DNA from: Methanolobus vulcani | GTDB lineage: Archaea; Halobacteriota; Methanosarcinia; Methanosarcinales; Methanosarcinaceae | Length of the DNA: 41,855 nt | Assembly (NCBI RefSeq): GCF_900100715.1 | Contig: NZ_FNCA01000006.1 | Span: 192,058 to 233,912 of the forward strand | Reading direction: 5' to 3' | Part shown: positions 9,764 through 25,645 of the stretch, piece by piece | Layout of the letters: each line of letters begins with the position of its first letter | Numbering within the stretch: the first letter of the stretch is position 1 | Notes under the pieces: generated by a model | The model's database searches: none | What the model was told of the DNA's origin: nothing | What the model saw: the letters and a program-made list of their open reading frames with translations, nothing else | Made by a program: the position numbers and the translations under genes

Positions 9764-10192
9764 ATGAAAAAACAAATGCTGATCTTAATTGTAACACTCG
9801 CTCTTATGACTGCAGGCTGTGCAGGTATCGGTAGCACTCCAACAAAGACTGTGGAGAACTTTGCAGCAGAATTCAGTCAGGAAAAATATGACACATGCTA
9901 TGAGATGATGTCAGCAGCCTATAAAGAAGATACATCTCTTTCAGATTTTGTCGATATCTGCAAGGATGTGAATCCAGATAAATATGAGTTCATAGAAGTA
10001 AGCAATGAGTATATCAGTGATAATACAGCAGTTGTTGATGTACTTGTTAATGAATCGTCTGTTGCTATCAAGTTCTCACTTGAGAAATTCATTGAAGTTG
10101 AACCTGAATACAATGAGGTTACAAAAGAGATTGACCTTGTAAAACAGGAAGATGAATGGAAGCTCACAGAATTCCCATATGTACTGACATAA
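9764..10192 (+). CDS. Lipoprotein, DUF4878/NTF2-like
   Basis: A 142-aa protein with signal peptide MKKQMLILIVTLALMTAGC; the lipobox Cys is residue 19. The mature part (TVENFAAEFSQEKYDTCYEMMS... VVDVLVNE... EWKLTEFPYVL) has the pattern of small extracytoplasmic NTF2-fold/DUF4878-like proteins. AAGGTG lies 7 nt before the ATG. It is presumably membrane-anchored outside the cell. Function unknown. Confidence 0.75.
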   Translation: MKKQMLILIVTLALMTAGCAGIGSTPTKTVENFAAEFSQEKYDTCYEMMSAAYKEDTSLSDFVDICKDVNPDKYEFIEVSNEYISDNTAVVDVLVNESSVAIKFSLEKFIEVEPEYNEVTKEIDLVKQEDEWKLTEFPYVLT

Positions 10193-19095: not shown

Positions 19096-20256
19096 TTAAC
19101 TATTGTTTTTGTTACTGTTTTTCAGCAAAAGTGTGAGGATCATGAGCACTGCAGTTCCTGTAAACATAATCTGGTATCCGAATTTTGTAAAATACCCCAT
19201 GATCATGGGCAGAAATGCAAGTCCCATGTATGTGTATGTAGTAAAGATACCCATACTCGTTCCTTTATCATTTTTATCAATGTCCATGTAAGAAACAGCT
19301 ATAGGCAAGCCTATCATACCAATTCCTGAACCTATTCCAAGGAGTGTAAAGCCTGTAAGTGGATATTTTATGGAGACTATAACTCCTGCAGCAGCAAGTA
19401 TGATTCCTGAATTTATCATTTTCCTGTAATTGATATTCAATCTTCCTGCAATGAGATTAGTGGCCATGGAACTAATATATACAATAGCTATCACAATTCC
19501 AAGTTCTGGTTTGCTAAGCATTCCACTGCTGTACTGTGGATAGTACGCAAGCATTACTCCTGTTATTCCGAAAATGAAGAATGCAATTATCCATGTTGTG
19601 ATGTACATTGGGTTTAATGCTATGCCAAGGATCTTTTTTGTTTCATTCAGGAAGATATCGTATGAATGTGGTTCTTTTCCTGTTTTTGATATTTGATCAT
19701 TATTTTTACTTCCTTGTTGATAAGTCCCGGGTATGATCATTCCAAAACAGAATACTATCAATGCCAGTGCTGTGAAAAGTATGATTGCTCCTTTGACGTA
19801 TCCATCTGCCAGAAAGCCTGCAGCTACTGCTCCTGATGCAAGCCCTGCGTTGAGGAGAAAATTGAATTCTCCAAGGTATCGATTCTTGTTTTGATATTCT
19901 GCAAGAATTGCATATGCAGGTGGGAAAAAAGCACCACACGCGCAACCTTCCAGTATTCTTGCTATTATCATGAGATAGGTATTACTGGTTAGTGTGAGCA
20001 TTATGCCGGAAATTGCTGTAAGGGAAATAGCAAGAATGATCAGTTTCAGGTGACTGTACCTGTCTGCTATAAATCCGAACGGTATCAAAGTTAATAATGC
20101 TCCGATAAAGTATCCGGAAAAGAGTAAAGTATATTTAATGGTGCCAGGTCCTACTGAGGAAGCAGAGGCAATTTCTGGTAATACAGGAATAACTGAATTG
20201 GATAAACCCATAATGAGGAATACAGTGGAGTAAATGAAAAAACGTTCTTTTGTCAT
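19096..20256 (-). CDS. MFS transporter
   Basis: A 386-aa protein with about 12 transmembrane segments. The MFS signature after TM2 is GFIADRYSHLK (GxxxDRxxRRx-like), and TM4-5 contain ILEGCACGAFFPPAYAILAEYQ. Probably an efflux or drug:H+ antiporter-type carrier; the substrate is unknown. AAGGA lies 6 nt before the ATG. It faces the 5-kb gene-free region. Confidence 0.85.
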   Translation of the reverse strand: MTKERFFIYSTVFLIMGLSNSVIPVLPEIASASSVGPGTIKYTLLFSGYFIGALLTLIPFGFIADRYSHLKLIILAISLTAISGIMLTLTSNTYLMIIARILEGCACGAFFPPAYAILAEYQNKNRYLGEFNFLLNAGLASGAVAAGFLADGYVKGAIILFTALALIVFCFGMIIPGTYQQGSKNNDQISKTGKEPHSYDIFLNETKKILGIALNPMYITTWIIAFFIFGITGVMLAYYPQYSSGMLSKPELGIVIAIVYISSMATNLIAGRLNINYRKMINSGIILAAAGVIVSIKYPLTGFTLLGIGSGIGMIGLPIAVSYMDIDKNDKGTSMGIFTTYTYMGLAFLPMIMGYFTKFGYQIMFTGTAVLMILTLLLKNSNKNNS

Positions 20257-21030
20257 ACAATTCCTTCGCGGATGATTATTATTGACATGTTATTTAGTTT
20301 TAAGTTCTGGACCTGTTTAAGTTTTTATAGAGCGTGTGTCAATAACAGGTTCCTTTACATTTTTACAGTGTGTTACCGTAAATCAAAATCTATATATTTG
20401 AGTGTATATGTTATGTGCAAAAGAGGAAACGAGCACAAGCCAGTCTAAAATAATTTGTTAGTATATAATATAGTATACATATAATATTATCTGTTTAATT
20501 TTTTAAAAAAATAGTATGAATTTTAATTAATAATAAGTATTAATAATTTGTATGTGTTATTATTATATGTATATTTTTATTTATTTATTTATTGCTAGCT
20601 GAGTATAGACAAAGCAATACAAATTCTTAATTATAAATATAGTCTTAATTTAATCAAACTTGCATGATTAAATTAATAAGTATTAACCTAAATTTACTAA
20701 ATATATAATTTTTATTACAATTTTCTATACATGCTATATTTATTATTAATGTTTGCGGATTTCACAAAACATTGTTTCAACTAATTTTTAGTAAATTGGG
20801 TTATTCCAAATTTTTATTTTAATTATGTAGGCTAAAATGTCATGCCCAACCAGTTCTAACATACATCTTATTTAATTAATAGAATATTGTTTGTTAGCTT
20901 GATACCGTTTTTTGCCGATGATAATTATATAGTCGCAGAACATCCTAATTACAATGACTATATGAATAAGGTCTATGTTGGAATTACTATAATTTATCCT
21001 GATACTTTTGTGTAGATCATGTTAGGGTTG
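20257..21030. other. A/T-rich gene-free stretch
   Basis: No credible gene. It is very A+T-rich, with a palindromic TATA-like TATAGTATACATATA at 20469-20483. That 15-mer recurs exactly at 36235-36249, upstream of the structured intergenic region near 36.3 kb, so it may be a promoter. It also forms the upstream part of the hairpin-rich region. Confidence 0.4.
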
Positions 21031-21042
21031 GAGTTCAGAACA

Positions 21043-21160
21043 CCCATATTCCTATATACTCTGGAATAGCCGATTTCAGAAAAACATACCCTTTTTGACG
21101 ATTTTTGGAAAATCCCATTTTCATTCCTATAGACTATAGGAATATGGATGTTTTTGTTTG
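21043..21160 (+). repeat. Nested inverted repeats
   Basis: CCATATTCCTATA near 21047-21059 is matched by TATAGGAATATGG about 85 bp later. The second arm is itself part of a palindrome, ATTCCTATAG-a-CTATAGGAAT (about 21133-21153). The same 10-bp arm can therefore pair in two mutually exclusive ways. Confidence 0.8.
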
Positions 21161-21485
21161 AGATCACAGAAAATAGGACTTAGACTTTACAACTTTTACT
21201 TAAAAGTAAGCTCATTTTTTACGGCTTGTTCAGAAAATCCGCGCAGATTTTAGATTGGTGTTTTCGGTGCTGTGACTCTAGAGTAAACGTATCGAAAGCT
21301 ATTAAATAAAAATAGCTGAATATAATTTGTTTTGTACAAGAAACACATAATAAAAAACACTTCACTGTTGACTAACAATTAAAATTATAATAAAATGTTG
21401 AACAAACTTCTATAATTATTATTTGTAGCATCAGCTTTTTTTCATGAACTTTTAATATTAATTTCTAAACTTGACTAAATTATAA

Positions 21486-21535
21486 TCTGTGATTATATCT
21501 CCGCGCTTAAATTATTATAATTCACAGATTTTGTT
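21486..21535 (+). repeat. Long hairpin
   Basis: AATCTGTGA at the 5' side pairs with TCACAGATT at the 3' side, continued by TTATA/TATAA-type pairs around a loop containing CTCCGCGC. Exact bounds are approximate. Confidence 0.7.
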
Positions 21536-21713
21536 CACAAAATCCCCAAAAATAGCCAAAAATAGCGTTTTTGTTCGTATTAGTACGAAATCAACAATTA
21601 ATTAAGTGTGTTTTTATAAATATATGTTAATGTATCAATTTATTTCTTCAAGTTGTAAATTATATGTGTAACAGAATATTGTTACATTGCAATATACGCC
21701 AAAGTATAGAATT

Positions 21714-21748
21714 AGATGTAACTAAATGTAGTTACATCTTACTTTTTT
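21714..21748 (+). terminator. Hairpin plus T-run upstream of unit A
   Basis: AGATGTAAC (21714-21722) pairs with GTTACATCT (21731-21739) around an 8-nt loop, then TACTTTTTT follows. This looks like an intrinsic terminator or an insulating hairpin before the ncRNA array. A second small hairpin TGTAAC/GTTACA lies just before it at about 21667-21686. Confidence 0.5.
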
Positions 21749-21835
21749 GGTGACACTTTGAAGTTTTCGCAGGAATTCATCTGTTTTTCAATACTTCCTA
21801 ACTTATACCAGACAGATACATTAATAAGTAAAAGA

Positions 21836-22186
21836 AGTTGCACTTATAGTGCCAGAACATTTTGGAGATGTTGTCGGGTACATGTTTTCCCTTGCATAAG
21901 ACCATAAGGCAACAAGCGCTATGTCTGATAGAGGATAGCACAGACTTTTTTATGATCATCCTCTATCAGACTAAATTGAAGCATATTAATCATATAACCT
22001 AGCAACACCAAATTTTGTTATATGATTAATATTCACTAAACTCACTCCCCCGAGTGCTTAGTATCTTAGTCGCTTACTCCCGTTTACTTGTTTGTTTAAC
22101 ATGATATATAAAAAAATTGTATTTTTATTCATAAAGGTCTCTGAAATAATAATGTTGTTATTATTTTTAATAAGGTTAAAAGCATC
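21836..22186 (+). ncRNA. Structured RNA unit A (first of three paralogues)
   Basis: Ordered hairpins: (1) GTTGC.CTTAT / ATAAG.GCAAC, 21838-21912, with a bulge; (2) TCTGATAGAGGAT 21924-21936 / ATCCTCTATCAGA 21958-21970, perfect 13 bp; (3) ATATTAATCATATAAC 21983-21998 / GTTATATGATTAATAT 22017-22032, perfect 16 bp; (4) ACTAA..CACT / AGTG.TTAGT 22035-22062 presenting CCCC; then TACTCC; (5) AATAATAA/TTATTATT followed by T's near 22145-22170. No ORF spans it. The same order recurs in B and C. I infer a non-coding RNA read on the plus strand (T-runs follow hairpin 5 on this strand). Not recognised as a known RNA class. Confidence 0.65.
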
Positions 22187-22270
22187 TAAGAGAATGAAGC
22201 AAAAATAAATTTAATATCTATATTAGATTGAGATGTATCTCTCATAAAATATCCGTTGGAAAGCTAAAAG

Positions 22271-22627
22271 AAGTTGCCTTGTGTGGAAGGGTTGGTTGTT
22301 ACAGGTATCGGAGGACAATACGTTTCTTCCACTTAAGGCAACAATGAATGAGATGTCTGATAGAGGATTGCACAGACTTTTGGTTGTTTGGTTGGTATAT
22401 TATGATTTTCCTCTATCAGGCTAAATTGAAGCATATTAATCATATAACCCCATACCACCTGATTAGTTATATGATTAATATTCCCTAAACCCACTCCCCA
22501 GCGTGCTTAGTCCCATACTCCATTTTATTTATATGTTCACTAAGTTATATCAACTAACTGCATTTTTATTTACAACACCTTCTGAAATGTTGATGCCCTT
22601 ATTATTTATGACAACGTTATCTGCATC
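22271..22627 (+). ncRNA. Structured RNA unit B
   Basis: Hairpin 1: GTTGCCTT (22273-22280) / AAGGCAAC with a further GTGGAAG/CTTCCAC stem beyond a 2x2 internal loop. Hairpin 2: CTGATAGAGGA (22357-22367) / TCCTCTATCAG (22409-22419), whose loop holds GCACAGACTTTT as in A and GGTTGGTAT as in C. Hairpin 3: identical 16-bp stem to A (22433-22448 / 22466-22481). Hairpin 4: CTAA..CAC / GTG.TTAG (22485-22510) around CTCCCC. Downstream block ending GCATC, as in A. The 84-bp A-B spacer contains TATA-like sequence, so B may have its own promoter. Confidence 0.65.
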
Positions 22628-22782
22628 ATAAGTATAATATTTTCAATATCCACAAAAAGCAGCATGTTAAATAATTATGTGTTGGATTCAAACTAAAAAA
22701 ATCAGGTAATTTGGTAACTATGCAAAATCTTATATTAAAATCTTATATTAATTTTTGTATCAAAAATTGATAGACGGGTATA

Positions 22783-23130
22783 AAAGTTGCCTTATGAGGA
22801 AAATGAGAGATTTATCGGATAGGTTTGTAACATAAGGCAACTATTAATCTCATGTCTGATAGGGGGAGGTATAGATCATTGGTTGGTATGATGTATTTTG
22901 ATCCCCTATCAGACGATGTTGAAGTATTAATCTTATAACAAATTCAGCTACCAAATTTGATTTCTGTTACAAGATCAATATCTAAGCCACTCCCCAGCAC
23001 GCTTAGTCCCGTACTCCAATCTATTCATTTGTTTACTATGCTATTTAAAAAAACTTCATTTTTATTCATAATGCTTTTTGAATAAATAATACGGTTATTA
23101 TTTTCAATGATGTTAATATTAAAAAGTTGC
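22783..23130 (+). ncRNA. Structured RNA unit C
   Basis: Hairpin 1: GTTGCCTTATG / CATAAGGCAAC, perfect 11 bp (about 22785-22841). Hairpin 2: TCTGATAGGGG (22855-22865) / CCCCTATCAGA (22903-22913); relative to A/B an A-T pair has become G-C on both arms. Hairpin 3: ATTAATCTTATAAC / GTTACAAGATCAAT, with one compensatory A-T to T-A swap and two A-C mismatches. Hairpin 4: CTAAGC (22982-22987) / GCTTAG (23001-23006) around CTCCCC. Ends with A/T-rich hairpin and T's. The compensated arm changes support selection on RNA pairing. Confidence 0.65.
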
Positions 23131-23407
23131 TGGCTTGTTTCTAATATTTATTGTTAATTTCAGAAACCATAATGTAACTCTTGTGTTATGTTATGGTGCA
23201 GTATGAGGAATTGCAATAAATGTTATTATGCTTCACCTAATAAGATGTCACTAATCCTAAACAATATTTTGTAGTTACTTATTAATTCCTGAACATTAAC
23301 CAGTTATTATAAGCAATAAATAATATTCACATCTTAGCTAACGTATATTAGTACTATATTATGCATCATTCTTAGTTACGGTATTACACAAATTAAAATA
23401 AAAGAGT

Positions 23408-23510
23408 CTGATAAGGATATTTTATTGGTGGTGGTACGAGTTATATCCTCATCAGGCAACCGGGCTAAATTTTATTCCCCACTCAATTTATGTAAATTCT
23501 GCCCTTTAGT
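23408..23510 (+). ncRNA. Single hairpin D of the CTGATA family
   Basis: CTGAT.AGGATAT (23408-23420) pairs with ATATCCT.ATCAG (23443-23455) with one A-C mismatch. The loop carries GGTGGTGGTACGAG. The hairpin is followed by TTTTATTCCCCACTCAATTTATG, a tail that resembles the tail after hairpin I (about 24852-24878). Confidence 0.55.
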
Positions 23511-23845
23511 TACCATATTGATCTATGTTTCACAGCAATTTACCATAAATCAAGGTTTCTTATCGTGGTGTTTTTGAGCCCCAAACAACACCACTATACG
23601 CTTCCGGTTGAATCGAATTTAAACAGAAGCGCTAATTACTTTTATCTTTCACCTTATAGATAAAAGGAAAAGAAACTAAATTACTAAACTTGATTTATAG
23701 AGTAATCTCAAAGATTTGTTATTGTATATTTAGAAGATATTCCTGCAGTGATTCCTTGTTAAATGTAAGAAAAGCATTAAACCACAAACAATGTTTCAGA
23801 ACATAATTATCAGTTGGTATAAAATGTTTGGAATAGCCGAGAAAG

Positions 23846-23895
23846 CCTTATGGGACAAAATGAAATTCGGGTAACTGGGTAATTGTCCCATAAGG
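23846..23895 (+). ncRNA. Single hairpin E, relic of hairpin-1 family
   Basis: CCTTATGGGACAA (23846-23858) pairs perfectly with TTGTCCCATAAGG (23883-23895). The 3' side CATAAGGTAAC closely matches CATAAGGCAAC of unit C, and the bases after it resemble C too, so this looks like a divergent hairpin-1 whose downstream parts have decayed. Confidence 0.55.
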
Positions 23896-24074
23896 TAACC
23901 ACTAATGCCTAATGGTTAATAGAAATTATATTTTTCTTCTATTTATGATAGCATGAAGCTATGTTTAGAAATATAGATTTTTCCAGATTATTTGTAACAA
24001 ATAGTTTTTATAATAAAGATGGAACTTATTTTGTTTATATGAAATCAATTGCTACTAGTGTTTCATTTTAGTAA

Positions 24075-24153
24075 TGTAGATAGGACAAGAACATTTGATC
24101 ATTGGAAAAATGATTTATGCTTTCAGTTGGTGCGATATTATGGCCTATCTACA
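24075..24153 (+). repeat. Single hairpin F
   Basis: TGTAGATAGG (24075-24084) pairs perfectly with CCTATCTACA (24144-24153), with a ~59-nt loop that includes GTTGGTGCGAT. The GATAGG core links it weakly to the CTGATA family. Confidence 0.5.
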
Positions 24154-24240
24154 GAACATGTTTATGCTATGTTTATATTTATTACATTAGGAAATAAACT
24201 TCTGAAACTAAAGTTCTGATAGTTGAAAATCAAAATATGA

Positions 24241-24304
24241 TTGCCTGATAAGAGGCATGTTAGGGTTATTGCTCGGTACTTGATACTTATCAGGCAACAG
24301 GAGG
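24241..24304 (+). ncRNA. Single hairpin G with AGGAGG at its foot
   Basis: TTGCCTGATAAG (24241-24252) pairs perfectly with CTTATCAGGCAA (24286-24297). The loop holds ATGTTAGGGTTA, shared with hairpin H. AGGAGG (24299-24304) follows one nucleotide after the stem. Confidence 0.55.
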
Positions 24305-24313
24305 CACAAGTTT

Positions 24314-24397
24314 ATGAAAATTTCAAGAATTTATATCTTTTTGTGCATTTGTTACTCTGTAACTGATCCTATATATATGTTTATTCAACTAAGTTAG
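24314..24397 (+). CDS. Possible 27-aa peptide after hairpin G
   Basis: An ATG at 24314 follows AGGAGG by 9 nt and opens a 27-codon ORF (MKISRIYIFLCICYSV...), hydrophobic and Cys-containing. In such A/T-rich DNA this may be chance. The strong binding site immediately after a conserved hairpin is the only support, and hairpin H has the same AGGAGG with no ATG in range. Confidence 0.2.
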   Translation: MKISRIYIFLCICYSVTDPIYMFIQLS

Positions 24398-24516
24398 TTG
24401 AATCACATAACACAATATTCTTGCAAGAATAAGAAAAATAAAGAACATCAATTATGCTTAAGAATCAAATATTATCCTTTTTTCAAAAATTGACAGTAAT
24501 AAACTGTGCGATAAAT

Positions 24517-24585
24517 AAAGGCCTGATAGGAACATGTTAGGGTTAGGCTAGGCAGTTAGTGGTTATCCTTACAGGCCTTAGGAGG
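24517..24585 (+). ncRNA. Single hairpin H with AGGAGG at its foot
   Basis: AAGGCCTG (24518-24525) pairs with CAGGCCTT (24572-24579), extended by AGGA/TCCT. The loop has ACATGTTAGGGTTAGG as in G. AGGAGG (24580-24585) begins directly after the stem. Confidence 0.55.
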
Positions 24586-24766
24586 ACTTATTATAGTTCA
24601 CTCCTACACTATGCAACAGTTACTTTTTATGTAATATTATATATAATTATGGTAAACTAGTTTTGTTTAATAGTATAATTGTATGATTTCTTTAAAGAGT
24701 AAGGTATTCTTATTTCAAATAAATGAATGTCATCTAATTATGATTCAAAGAAAAGATAAGTATAGG

Positions 24767-24885
24767 TTCCTGATAGATGAGGGAACAAACGATGGTGGTA
24801 CAATATAGATGGTTAGTGGGTGTTATAAAAGCTCTATCAGGAAAATTGAATGCTTTATTCCCTCACCAATTTATGTATGCAAATG
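24767..24885 (+). ncRNA. Single hairpin I of the CTGATA family
   Basis: TTCCTGATAGA (24767-24777) pairs perfectly with TCTATCAGGAA (24833-24843). The loop contains GATGGTGGTACAAT, sharing GGTGGTAC with hairpin D and with the region at 36.3 kb. The tail TTTATTCCCTCACCAATTTA matches the tail after D. Confidence 0.55.
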
Positions 24886-25195
24886 TTGCTATTTATAATT
24901 ATTGTATGCACTATTATTCATAACAAATTTATTAATATTTTATCTTTGATATTTTATGCATACTCTTCAATTATCATCAGTTTTATTTAAAAAAACATAA
25001 CATTATAATTAATTTATTTTGATAGAATACTATTCTACTTTATGGTTTGCAACTCCTATCAGTTGCAAATGATATGTATAATTATAATAATAGTAACATT
25101 TTAATCTAAACTCATTAAACTATTGCTTGTAAATAATAATTAAATTTAAAAAGTATTTTGCGCTGTATGACATGAATACATATGTTTAGAATTAC
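24886..25195. other. A/T-rich stretch, no feature seen
   Basis: Very A+T-rich sequence between the last array hairpin and the end of the zinc-ribbon gene. I see no ORF. A short inverted repeat TTTGCAACTcctatcAGTTGCAAA near 25046-25070 is the only structure. Confidence 0.4.
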
Positions 25196-25645
25196 TCATA
25201 TGTTAATTTGTATTCCAAACAATTCATAAAAATCATTATACTTTTTTCTGGCACGATACAGATATTGCCGGACATACTTTTCTCCTCTTGCTTTTGCATA
25301 CATTGCTTTGGTTTCAGCAGGAGTGAAAACAGTTTCCAGTTTTTTTTGATCAATGTTATCCAGAAATTTAATATTGCTACTGTTATTGATATTGAAGAAA
25401 TCCAAAATGGTTTCTTCACCCTGCCAATTCCATTCTGTATCGTAGAATATTGCATAAATTATGTCGCAGGAAGTACATTTACCTGCAACTACCATACCAC
25501 TGTCATGAACATGATAACTAATACTGGTGACATCTGAATTGCAGGATTTACAGATTCCTATAAAGTTGCGGTCAAGGTTTTCAGGATAAAGGTCGATATC
25601 ATCGATCTGCATGACGTTACTTTCCACATCGTATTTTATATTCAT
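25196..25645 (-). CDS. Zinc-ribbon protein, unknown
   Basis: A 149-aa protein with two CxxC pairs, Cys32/Cys35 (GICKSCNSD) and Cys57/Cys60 (GKCTSCDI), forming a probable zinc ribbon. It is followed by a helical, basic C-terminal half (PAETKAMYAKARGEKYVRQY, ARKKYNDFYELF). GGTGA lies 5 nt before the ATG. It is divergent from the DUF2551 gene. Function not recognised; nucleic-acid binding is possible but unproven. Confidence 0.75.
   Translation of the reverse strand: MNIKYDVESNVMQIDDIDLYPENLDRNFIGICKSCNSDVTSISYHVHDSGMVVAGKCTSCDIIYAIFYDTEWNWQGEETILDFFNINNSSNIKFLDNIDQKKLETVFTPAETKAMYAKARGEKYVRQYLYRARKKYNDFYELFGIQINI

Follow-up and report, generated by a model that had tools for sequence, protein, structure and literature searches.

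The locus considered here raises the question of what three repeated, hairpin-rich units in a gene-free region of Methanolobus vulcani stand for, from which strand they would be read and what their products might do. The window, i.e. the whole stretch of DNA that was analysed, measures 41,855 nucleotides. The original prediction had seen in it three paralogous copies, here called A, B and C, and had taken them for an undescribed structured RNA family, by implication read on the plus strand.

Three tandem units in a gene-free interval

The three copies were recovered mechanically, both as repeat families (D1-D4) and as self-matches of the window (best E 5e-43). Together they occupy 21.83-23.07 kb of the window, with a copy spacing of about 440-500 nt, and the paralogues share 70-71% identity over 230-308 nt. 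The region had been described as gene-free, and no ORF of at least 80 aa was found between 20257 and 25191. All three units carry the announced order of hairpins 1-3 (H1-H3) followed by a hairpin 4 (H4) with a CTCCCC loop. The reported arm changes could also be seen: in unit C, GAGG/CCTC of hairpin 2 becomes GGGG/CCCC and an A-T pair of hairpin 3 becomes T-A, and the length of hairpin 1 differs between the units.

The gene-free interval (20257..25195, defined by ORF map and synteny and not assigned to a strand) spans 4.9 kb between an MFS transporter gene (19096-20256, minus strand) and an orphan gene for a 149-aa protein (25196-25645, minus strand). This arrangement is kept across the genus, with about 1.7-5 kb between the two genes where both were found; in G010, the nearest upstream gene is about 6 kb away and an IS605-type gene is found there. 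Relatives of the orphan protein occur in 22 of the 27 Methanolobus genomes; Pfam and NCBIfam gave no match for it.

Read on the minus strand, the units have the MFS gene downstream of them, so they could be imagined as part of a long leader or attenuator of this gene. However, they are about 1.6-2.8 kb away from it, no unit occupies the interval in G001, G007 and G020 although both the MFS gene and the interval are kept, and copies elsewhere adjoin DUF61, HTH or TPP-enzyme genes, which leaves a leader extremely unlikely.

Family members and their distribution

DNA and covariance-model searches yielded 12 members in 8 of the 27 Methanolobus genomes, and the carriers include the cultured species M. 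bombayensis and M. vulcani. In the host genome (G000), A, B and C on contig C15 are accompanied by a copy on contig C16. The remaining members belong to G010, G020 (two copies), G005, G025, G004, G015 and G023, the last one being a weak yet recognisable match. Units A and B scored 149.9 and 167.4 bits in cmsearch with models that include the respective unit itself, and unit C was recovered by model R1, built without C, with 87.7 bits (E 7e-14).

The original prediction had called for a covariance model and a search of archaeal genomes; carried out on 186 Methanosarcinales genomes with model R2, this search found homologues outside the array, some of them in other species. Methanolobus alone matched, and no member was found in the 159 other Methanosarcinales genomes, where the stricter filters used above 40 genomes may miss weak relatives. 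In the case of G026, which we take to be M. psychrophilus R15, the syntenic interval is present at about 225,600-229,350 of C1, and the genome gave no match to model R2. Apart from a tRNA, no Rfam 15 family matched the window at or above its curated gathering threshold, and the gene-free interval gave two chance-level matches only, far below threshold. Viral contigs yielded no homologue by two sequence patterns.

Regarding the relationships within the family, the nearest relative of unit C is the G005 copy (100/100 support) and B groups with neither A nor C, indicating that the array is not simply the result of three fresh local duplications. Single members also occur at other loci, outside the tandem array, and the C16 copy and one G020 copy sit at an orthologous position. 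The hairpin-1 sequence of the other members is absent in G025, G004, G015 and G023.

Covariation of the stems

Covariation was analysed on two alignments. Alignment A1, a plain MAFFT alignment of eight copies, was not fitted to the structure, and the structure tested on it was itself predicted from it. Over H1-H3, 91.5% of its cells were paired, compared with 35-46% for slid partners, and both sides had changed in 8 pairs vs 2.5±1.1 in shuffles (0/500). In alignment A4, which was model-fitted and contained the divergent members, 92.9% of cells over H3-H4 were paired vs 84.6±1.2% when shuffled, 9 pairs had changed on both sides and slid partners gave 32-43%. The stems thus covary above the shuffle and slid-partner controls in both alignments, as had been suspected, these controls taking no account of shared ancestry. 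Single-sequence folds beat the dinucleotide-shuffle mean in all members and on both strands (mean z -2.6 for plus and -3.6 for minus).

Across the family, stems change while loops stay fixed. In G025, G004 and G023, the arms of hairpin 3 are largely different but pair, and the adjoining segment of hairpin 4 is conserved. The arm replacement in G025 is, among the sequences compared, the clearest structural evidence and is independent of the statistics: here GGTATCGATCTTCTAAT/ATTAGATGATCGATACC stand in place of ATATTAATCATATAAC/GTTATATGATTAATAT and still pair with one mismatch, and CCCACTCCCCA in hairpin 4, beside the altered hairpin 3, is unchanged. With homologues found, covariation above controls and no Rfam match, the proposal of an undescribed structured RNA family held, and, as judged by comparative sequence analysis, A-C are members in tandem of a real, previously undescribed family of folded small RNAs.

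Pairing that is ambiguous as to strand, dispersed copies and repeated CTGATA..TATCAG palindromes could also be expected from elements that act as DNA, e.g. palindromes left by a decayed mobile element (of the MITE or REP-like kind) or binding sites for proteins. Scattered copies in large numbers at non-orthologous positions were not found, however: the genomes hold 0-4 copies each, two pairs of copies keep orthologous positions between species, the loops are more conserved than the stems, and a promoter and a U-run stand at fixed ends. An element of this kind is consequently very improbable.

Probable strand of transcription

The plus direction of the original prediction was not supported. Judging from the positions of TATA boxes and U-runs, the genes belong to the minus strand, from which they would probably be read. 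Over the 55 nt that precede hairpin 4 on the minus strand, the best matches to TTTAWATA summed to 88/96 over the 12 members, vs 76.7±2.1 in shuffles (0/500). An archaeal TATA box is found in all members except G023, which has no good TATA, and mostly lies 30-35 nt before the hairpin-4 anchor. In the case of the previously described 'A/T hairpin with T's', a conserved A/T-rich stretch is indeed present, but it reads best as a minus-strand promoter and not as a terminator. The promoter pattern AATAAAAATG-N5-13-TTKAWATA has 11 matches in the 27 genomes, 7 of them at RNA genes of the family. Three further matches stand before a conserved protein gene, which has an ATG and a Shine-Dalgarno site, hence the string appears to act as a promoter elsewhere. 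The string AATAAAAATGCAATTGCCTTTAAATA (G026:C1:1772900-1772925), ahead of a conserved protein gene, is identical in G026, G016 and G022.

At the other end, the last minus-strand hairpin is followed by a run of at least three T in most members, those without a clear U-run being G010, G020b and G004. Taking all hairpins of the syntenic intervals, T-runs of at least four follow 17/66 on the minus and 5/66 on the plus strand (Fisher P 0.009; background 12% and 14%).

Transcription from the plus strand, as first read, would present CUCCCC and GGUUGG loops. It is favoured by an excess of G·U over A·C of 15:8 (H1-H3, eight copies, P 0.21) and by a TATA-like string that precedes both the C16 copy and the orthologous G020 copy by about 130 nt. 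The same count over H3-H4 of eleven copies is 4:11 and favours minus; as a basis for the strand call, G·U counts and folding energy were set aside as contradictory or weak. Against plus transcription, the 55 nt before hairpin 1 on that strand show no TATA enrichment (70 vs 71.9 expected), the conserved A/T stretch that follows hairpin 4 has the pattern of a promoter in the opposite direction, T-runs follow the hairpins on minus and not on plus, and the mean fold z is lower on minus. Overall, we consider the plus strand unlikely. The correction of the strand decides every probe and mutant design. With genes on the minus strand, the motifs presented would be UGGGGAGUGG, CCAACC repeats and UCCUCC, and not CUCCCC.

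Predicted RNA genes and their loops

Each unit looks like an RNA gene of its own on the minus strand, with a predicted product of ~260-300 nt and four hairpins. On this strand the order is promoter, a short G-rich leader (GGAGUAUGGGA in several members), H4 with the loop UGGGGAGUGG, H3, H2 with CCAACC repeats, H1 and U-run.

The RNA gene of unit A is predicted at 21826..22085 (minus) from its TATA-to-U-run architecture and as a paralogue of B and C, with the 5' end near 22085 and the U-run near 21826-21836. Its TATA box TTTATATA (22105..22112, minus) matches TTTAWATA in 8/8 positions and lies 32 nt from the H4-side anchor. Sequence and the pairing count (helices 2-3) place hairpin 4 at 22036..22061, with the loop ACTCCCCC on plus and GGGGGAGU on minus. 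It is followed by hairpin 3 (21983..22032; perfect 16-bp stem), hairpin 2 (21923..21971; 14-bp stem) and, as the last hairpin on minus, hairpin 1 (21837..21913; from sequence and fold), all on the minus strand.

In the case of unit B, TATA box, U-run and fold delimit a predicted gene at 22260..22526 (minus). TATA scan and promoter pattern gave the box TTGATATA at 22546..22553 (minus), with AATAAAAATG before it. Hairpin 4 (22485..22510; sequence and pairing count) has the minus-strand loop UGGGGAGUGG, hairpin 3 (22433..22481) was found by stem search, hairpin 2 (22355..22421) has the minus-strand loop AUACCAACCAAACAACC, and hairpin 1 (22273..22342) carries an apical GUAUUGUCCUCCGAUAC with UCCUCC unpaired on minus in the predicted fold; all four are minus-strand features. 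Unit C is predicted in the same way at 22776..23022 (minus), the TATA box TTTAAATA at 23042..23049 (minus) again being preceded by AATAAAAATG. Its hairpins, likewise on minus, are hairpin 4 at 22982..23006 (sequence and pairing count; minus-strand loop UGGGGAGUGG), hairpin 3 at 22924..22981 (stem search and pairing count), hairpin 2 at 22853..22915 with the compensated GGGG/CCCC arms and hairpin 1 at 22786..22841 with the core GTTGCCTTATG..CATAAGGCAAC.

An apical stem-loop of the GUAUUGUCCUCCGAUAC type with UCCUCC unpaired in the folds is shared by hairpin 1 of B, G010 and G020a. More generally, UCCUCC or ACCUCC occurs near H1/H2 in 7/12 members, and CCTCC is absent in 5/12. Compared with shuffle expectation, the loop motifs counted were CCAACC (19 vs 0.67), GGGGAGTGG (7 vs 0.01) and CCTCC (7 vs 1.8), with CCAACC repeated up to five times within one hairpin of the C16 copy.

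Several other candidates were rejected. Intramolecular pairing of hairpin-2 with hairpin-3 loops was no better than that of shuffled or swapped loops (90/500). The tiny ORF at the minus 5' end (MEYGTKHAGEWV in B) has, by eye, lost its start codon and frame in A, G005, G010 and G025, and the AACAATGTTT palindrome was too irregular for a common upstream box. As for a role of the CTCCCC loop in seeding specific antisense pairing, TGGGGAGTGG/CCACTCCCCA is found a few times in every genome, the RNA-free ones included, and the idea is moot since this loop is G-rich on the favoured minus strand.

Proposed function

Our leading explanation, to which we give about even confidence, is that A-C are tandem minus-strand small RNA genes, each with its own TATA promoter and an end at a hairpin and U-run, which would act in trans by pairing with mRNAs. 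The family, its fold, the promoter and U-run positions and the tandem copies are supported by the comparisons above. As far as sequence alone can tell, the TATA and U-run positions give each unit its own promoter and the form of a discrete intergenic gene, as in archaeal intergenic trans-acting sRNAs. We infer that the units are transcribed in vivo, and from the minus strand: each promoter would give an RNA of ~260-300 nt ending at the hairpin and U-run. Its stems would drift by compensatory change with the loops kept, and the unpaired motifs, i.e. UGGGGAGUGG in H4, CCAACC in H2 and UCCUCC/ACCUCC near H1/H2, would base-pair with mRNAs, plausibly masking ribosome-binding sites. This masking would be the specific version of the mechanism, drawn by analogy with Methanosarcina mazei sRNA154 and sRNA41 (PMC5867862) and with the alpha-r14 RNAs (PMC10746234). 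It rests on the unpaired CCUCC in part of the family, and as CCTCC is missing in 5/12 members the family as a whole may act in another way.

The combination of several fixed loops with variable stems, and the recurrence of a motif inside a single hairpin (CCAACC in the C16 copy), would also suit a role of the same minus-strand RNAs as protein-binding scaffolds or sponges, following a CsrB/RsmZ-like logic instead of mRNA antisense. Yet no gene for a partner protein stands consistently beside the copies, and we know of no CsrA in archaea, so that we hold a scaffold to be improbable.

Further hairpins in the interval

The original prediction had considered the units only. The tandem copies were confirmed, but this view had missed that the interval is full of further hairpins and that single members occur at other loci. 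Many of these hairpins have CTGATA..TATCAG arms. Within the intervals, GGTGGTAC occurs 19 times vs 0.12 expected on the plus strand and never on the other, and also on plus, with none or few on the other strand, GGTTGGTTGG occurs 8 times vs 0.03 and AGGAGG (CCUCCU on minus) 17 times vs 4.75. The longer GGGGTGGTAC shows no genome-wide enrichment, the shorter GGTGGTAC being enriched within intervals.

The strand bias of GGTGGTAC could point to an RNA-RNA network, in which kissing contacts between the hairpin-3 loop (CGUACCACC on plus, GGUGGUACG on minus) and complementary loops of RNAs from the same interval would serve mutual regulation. Hairpin-3 loops pair with GGTGGTAC at -14.6 kcal/mol vs -8.6±0.7 for shuffled loops (0/300). 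However, the motif was picked after the fact and its reversed form pairs too (-12.2), A and G010 are without the hairpin-3 motif, and G023 has a variant of it but no GGTGGTAC in its own interval. Pairing of the hairpin-3 loop with GGUGGUACG loops of neighbouring RNAs is thus possible by sequence, and the network as such is distinctly unlikely. A wider form of the trans-acting sRNA explanation would see the interval as a genus-wide small-RNA hub, in which a series of hairpin RNA genes on the minus strand, drawn from several related families and including A-C, share loop motifs (CCAACC, GUACCACC/GGUGGUAC, CCUCCU) and would retune Methanolobus translation, partly by mutual pairing; we regard this hub as a speculative and rather unlikely extension.

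Other elements of the interval deserve description. The block 20947-21832 (886 bp) has no long ORF. For most of this length it has counterparts of 72-83% identity in five related genomes, and at least partial matches occur in 16/27 Methanolobus genomes. Inverted repeats are found within it (e.g. 21039-21056 and 21135-21152), and it may be another RNA or regulatory region of larger size. Other conserved hairpin types lie at 23406-23457, 23845-23896, 24075-24153, 24241-24297, 24522-24585 and 24767-24843. Their arms are of the CTGATA..TATCAG or the CCTTATG..CATAAGG type, and their loops contain GGTGGTAC or CATGTTAGGGTT (plus); the one at 23406-23457 carries a GGUGGUAC loop, and several have AGGAGG beside the 3' arm, i.e. 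CCUCCU on minus.

Locus L107 of G004 has, at about 9966-10027 on its reverse complement, a GCGGGGG..CCCCCGC hairpin whose loop contains TTTGGGGAGTGGGGG. This sequence lies on the CCACTCCCCA-bearing strand of the family and therefore looks like the complement of the loop in hairpin 4. Another type of hairpin, GAACACCGAT..ATCGGTGTTC and then GTGTGGGG..GGGGGTGGTAC, is present in the G004 interval (L173), G017, G002 and L108. Locus L106 has a look-alike hairpin, GAACACCAGC..GCTGGTGTTTT, followed by the complementary GGTACCACCCC.

Comparison with known systems

Few archaeal regulatory RNAs are understood. The present analysis adds a new and defined Methanolobus RNA family, which comes with its alignment and covariance model, with promoter and end predictions and with a locus that is conserved.

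Within the same genus, 195 intergenic sRNA starts have been mapped in M. psychrophilus R15, where 43 intergenic regions have two or more, and a motif lies upstream of the promoters of nine cold-induced conserved sRNAs (PMC5378194). The likeness to the present family consists of the genus, the intergenic position and the presence of several RNAs per intergenic region (PMC5378194).

In the case of Methanosarcina mazei, ribosome-binding sites are masked by sRNA41 and by loop 2 of sRNA154 (PMC5867862). Like the present family, they are intergenic stem-loop RNAs of Methanosarcinaceae, and pairing of their loops with mRNAs, in part at ribosome-binding sites, has been proposed or demonstrated (PMC5867862). 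They were described in Methanosarcina, whereas the present family was found only in Methanolobus, has four hairpins and up to four copies per genome, and is known here from sequence.

The alpha-r14 (NfeR1)/cuckoo RNAs of alpha-proteobacteria likewise have several hairpins with fixed loop motifs on stems that are very different in sequence (PMC10746234). In alpha-r14, each of three loops carries one CCUCCUCCC motif (PMC10746234), whereas the Methanolobus loops carry motifs that differ from each other, CCUCC occurs in only 7/12 members and the organisms are unrelated. The family opens a direct test of whether archaea, like alpha-proteobacteria, keep multi-loop RNAs with fixed loops on drifting stems.
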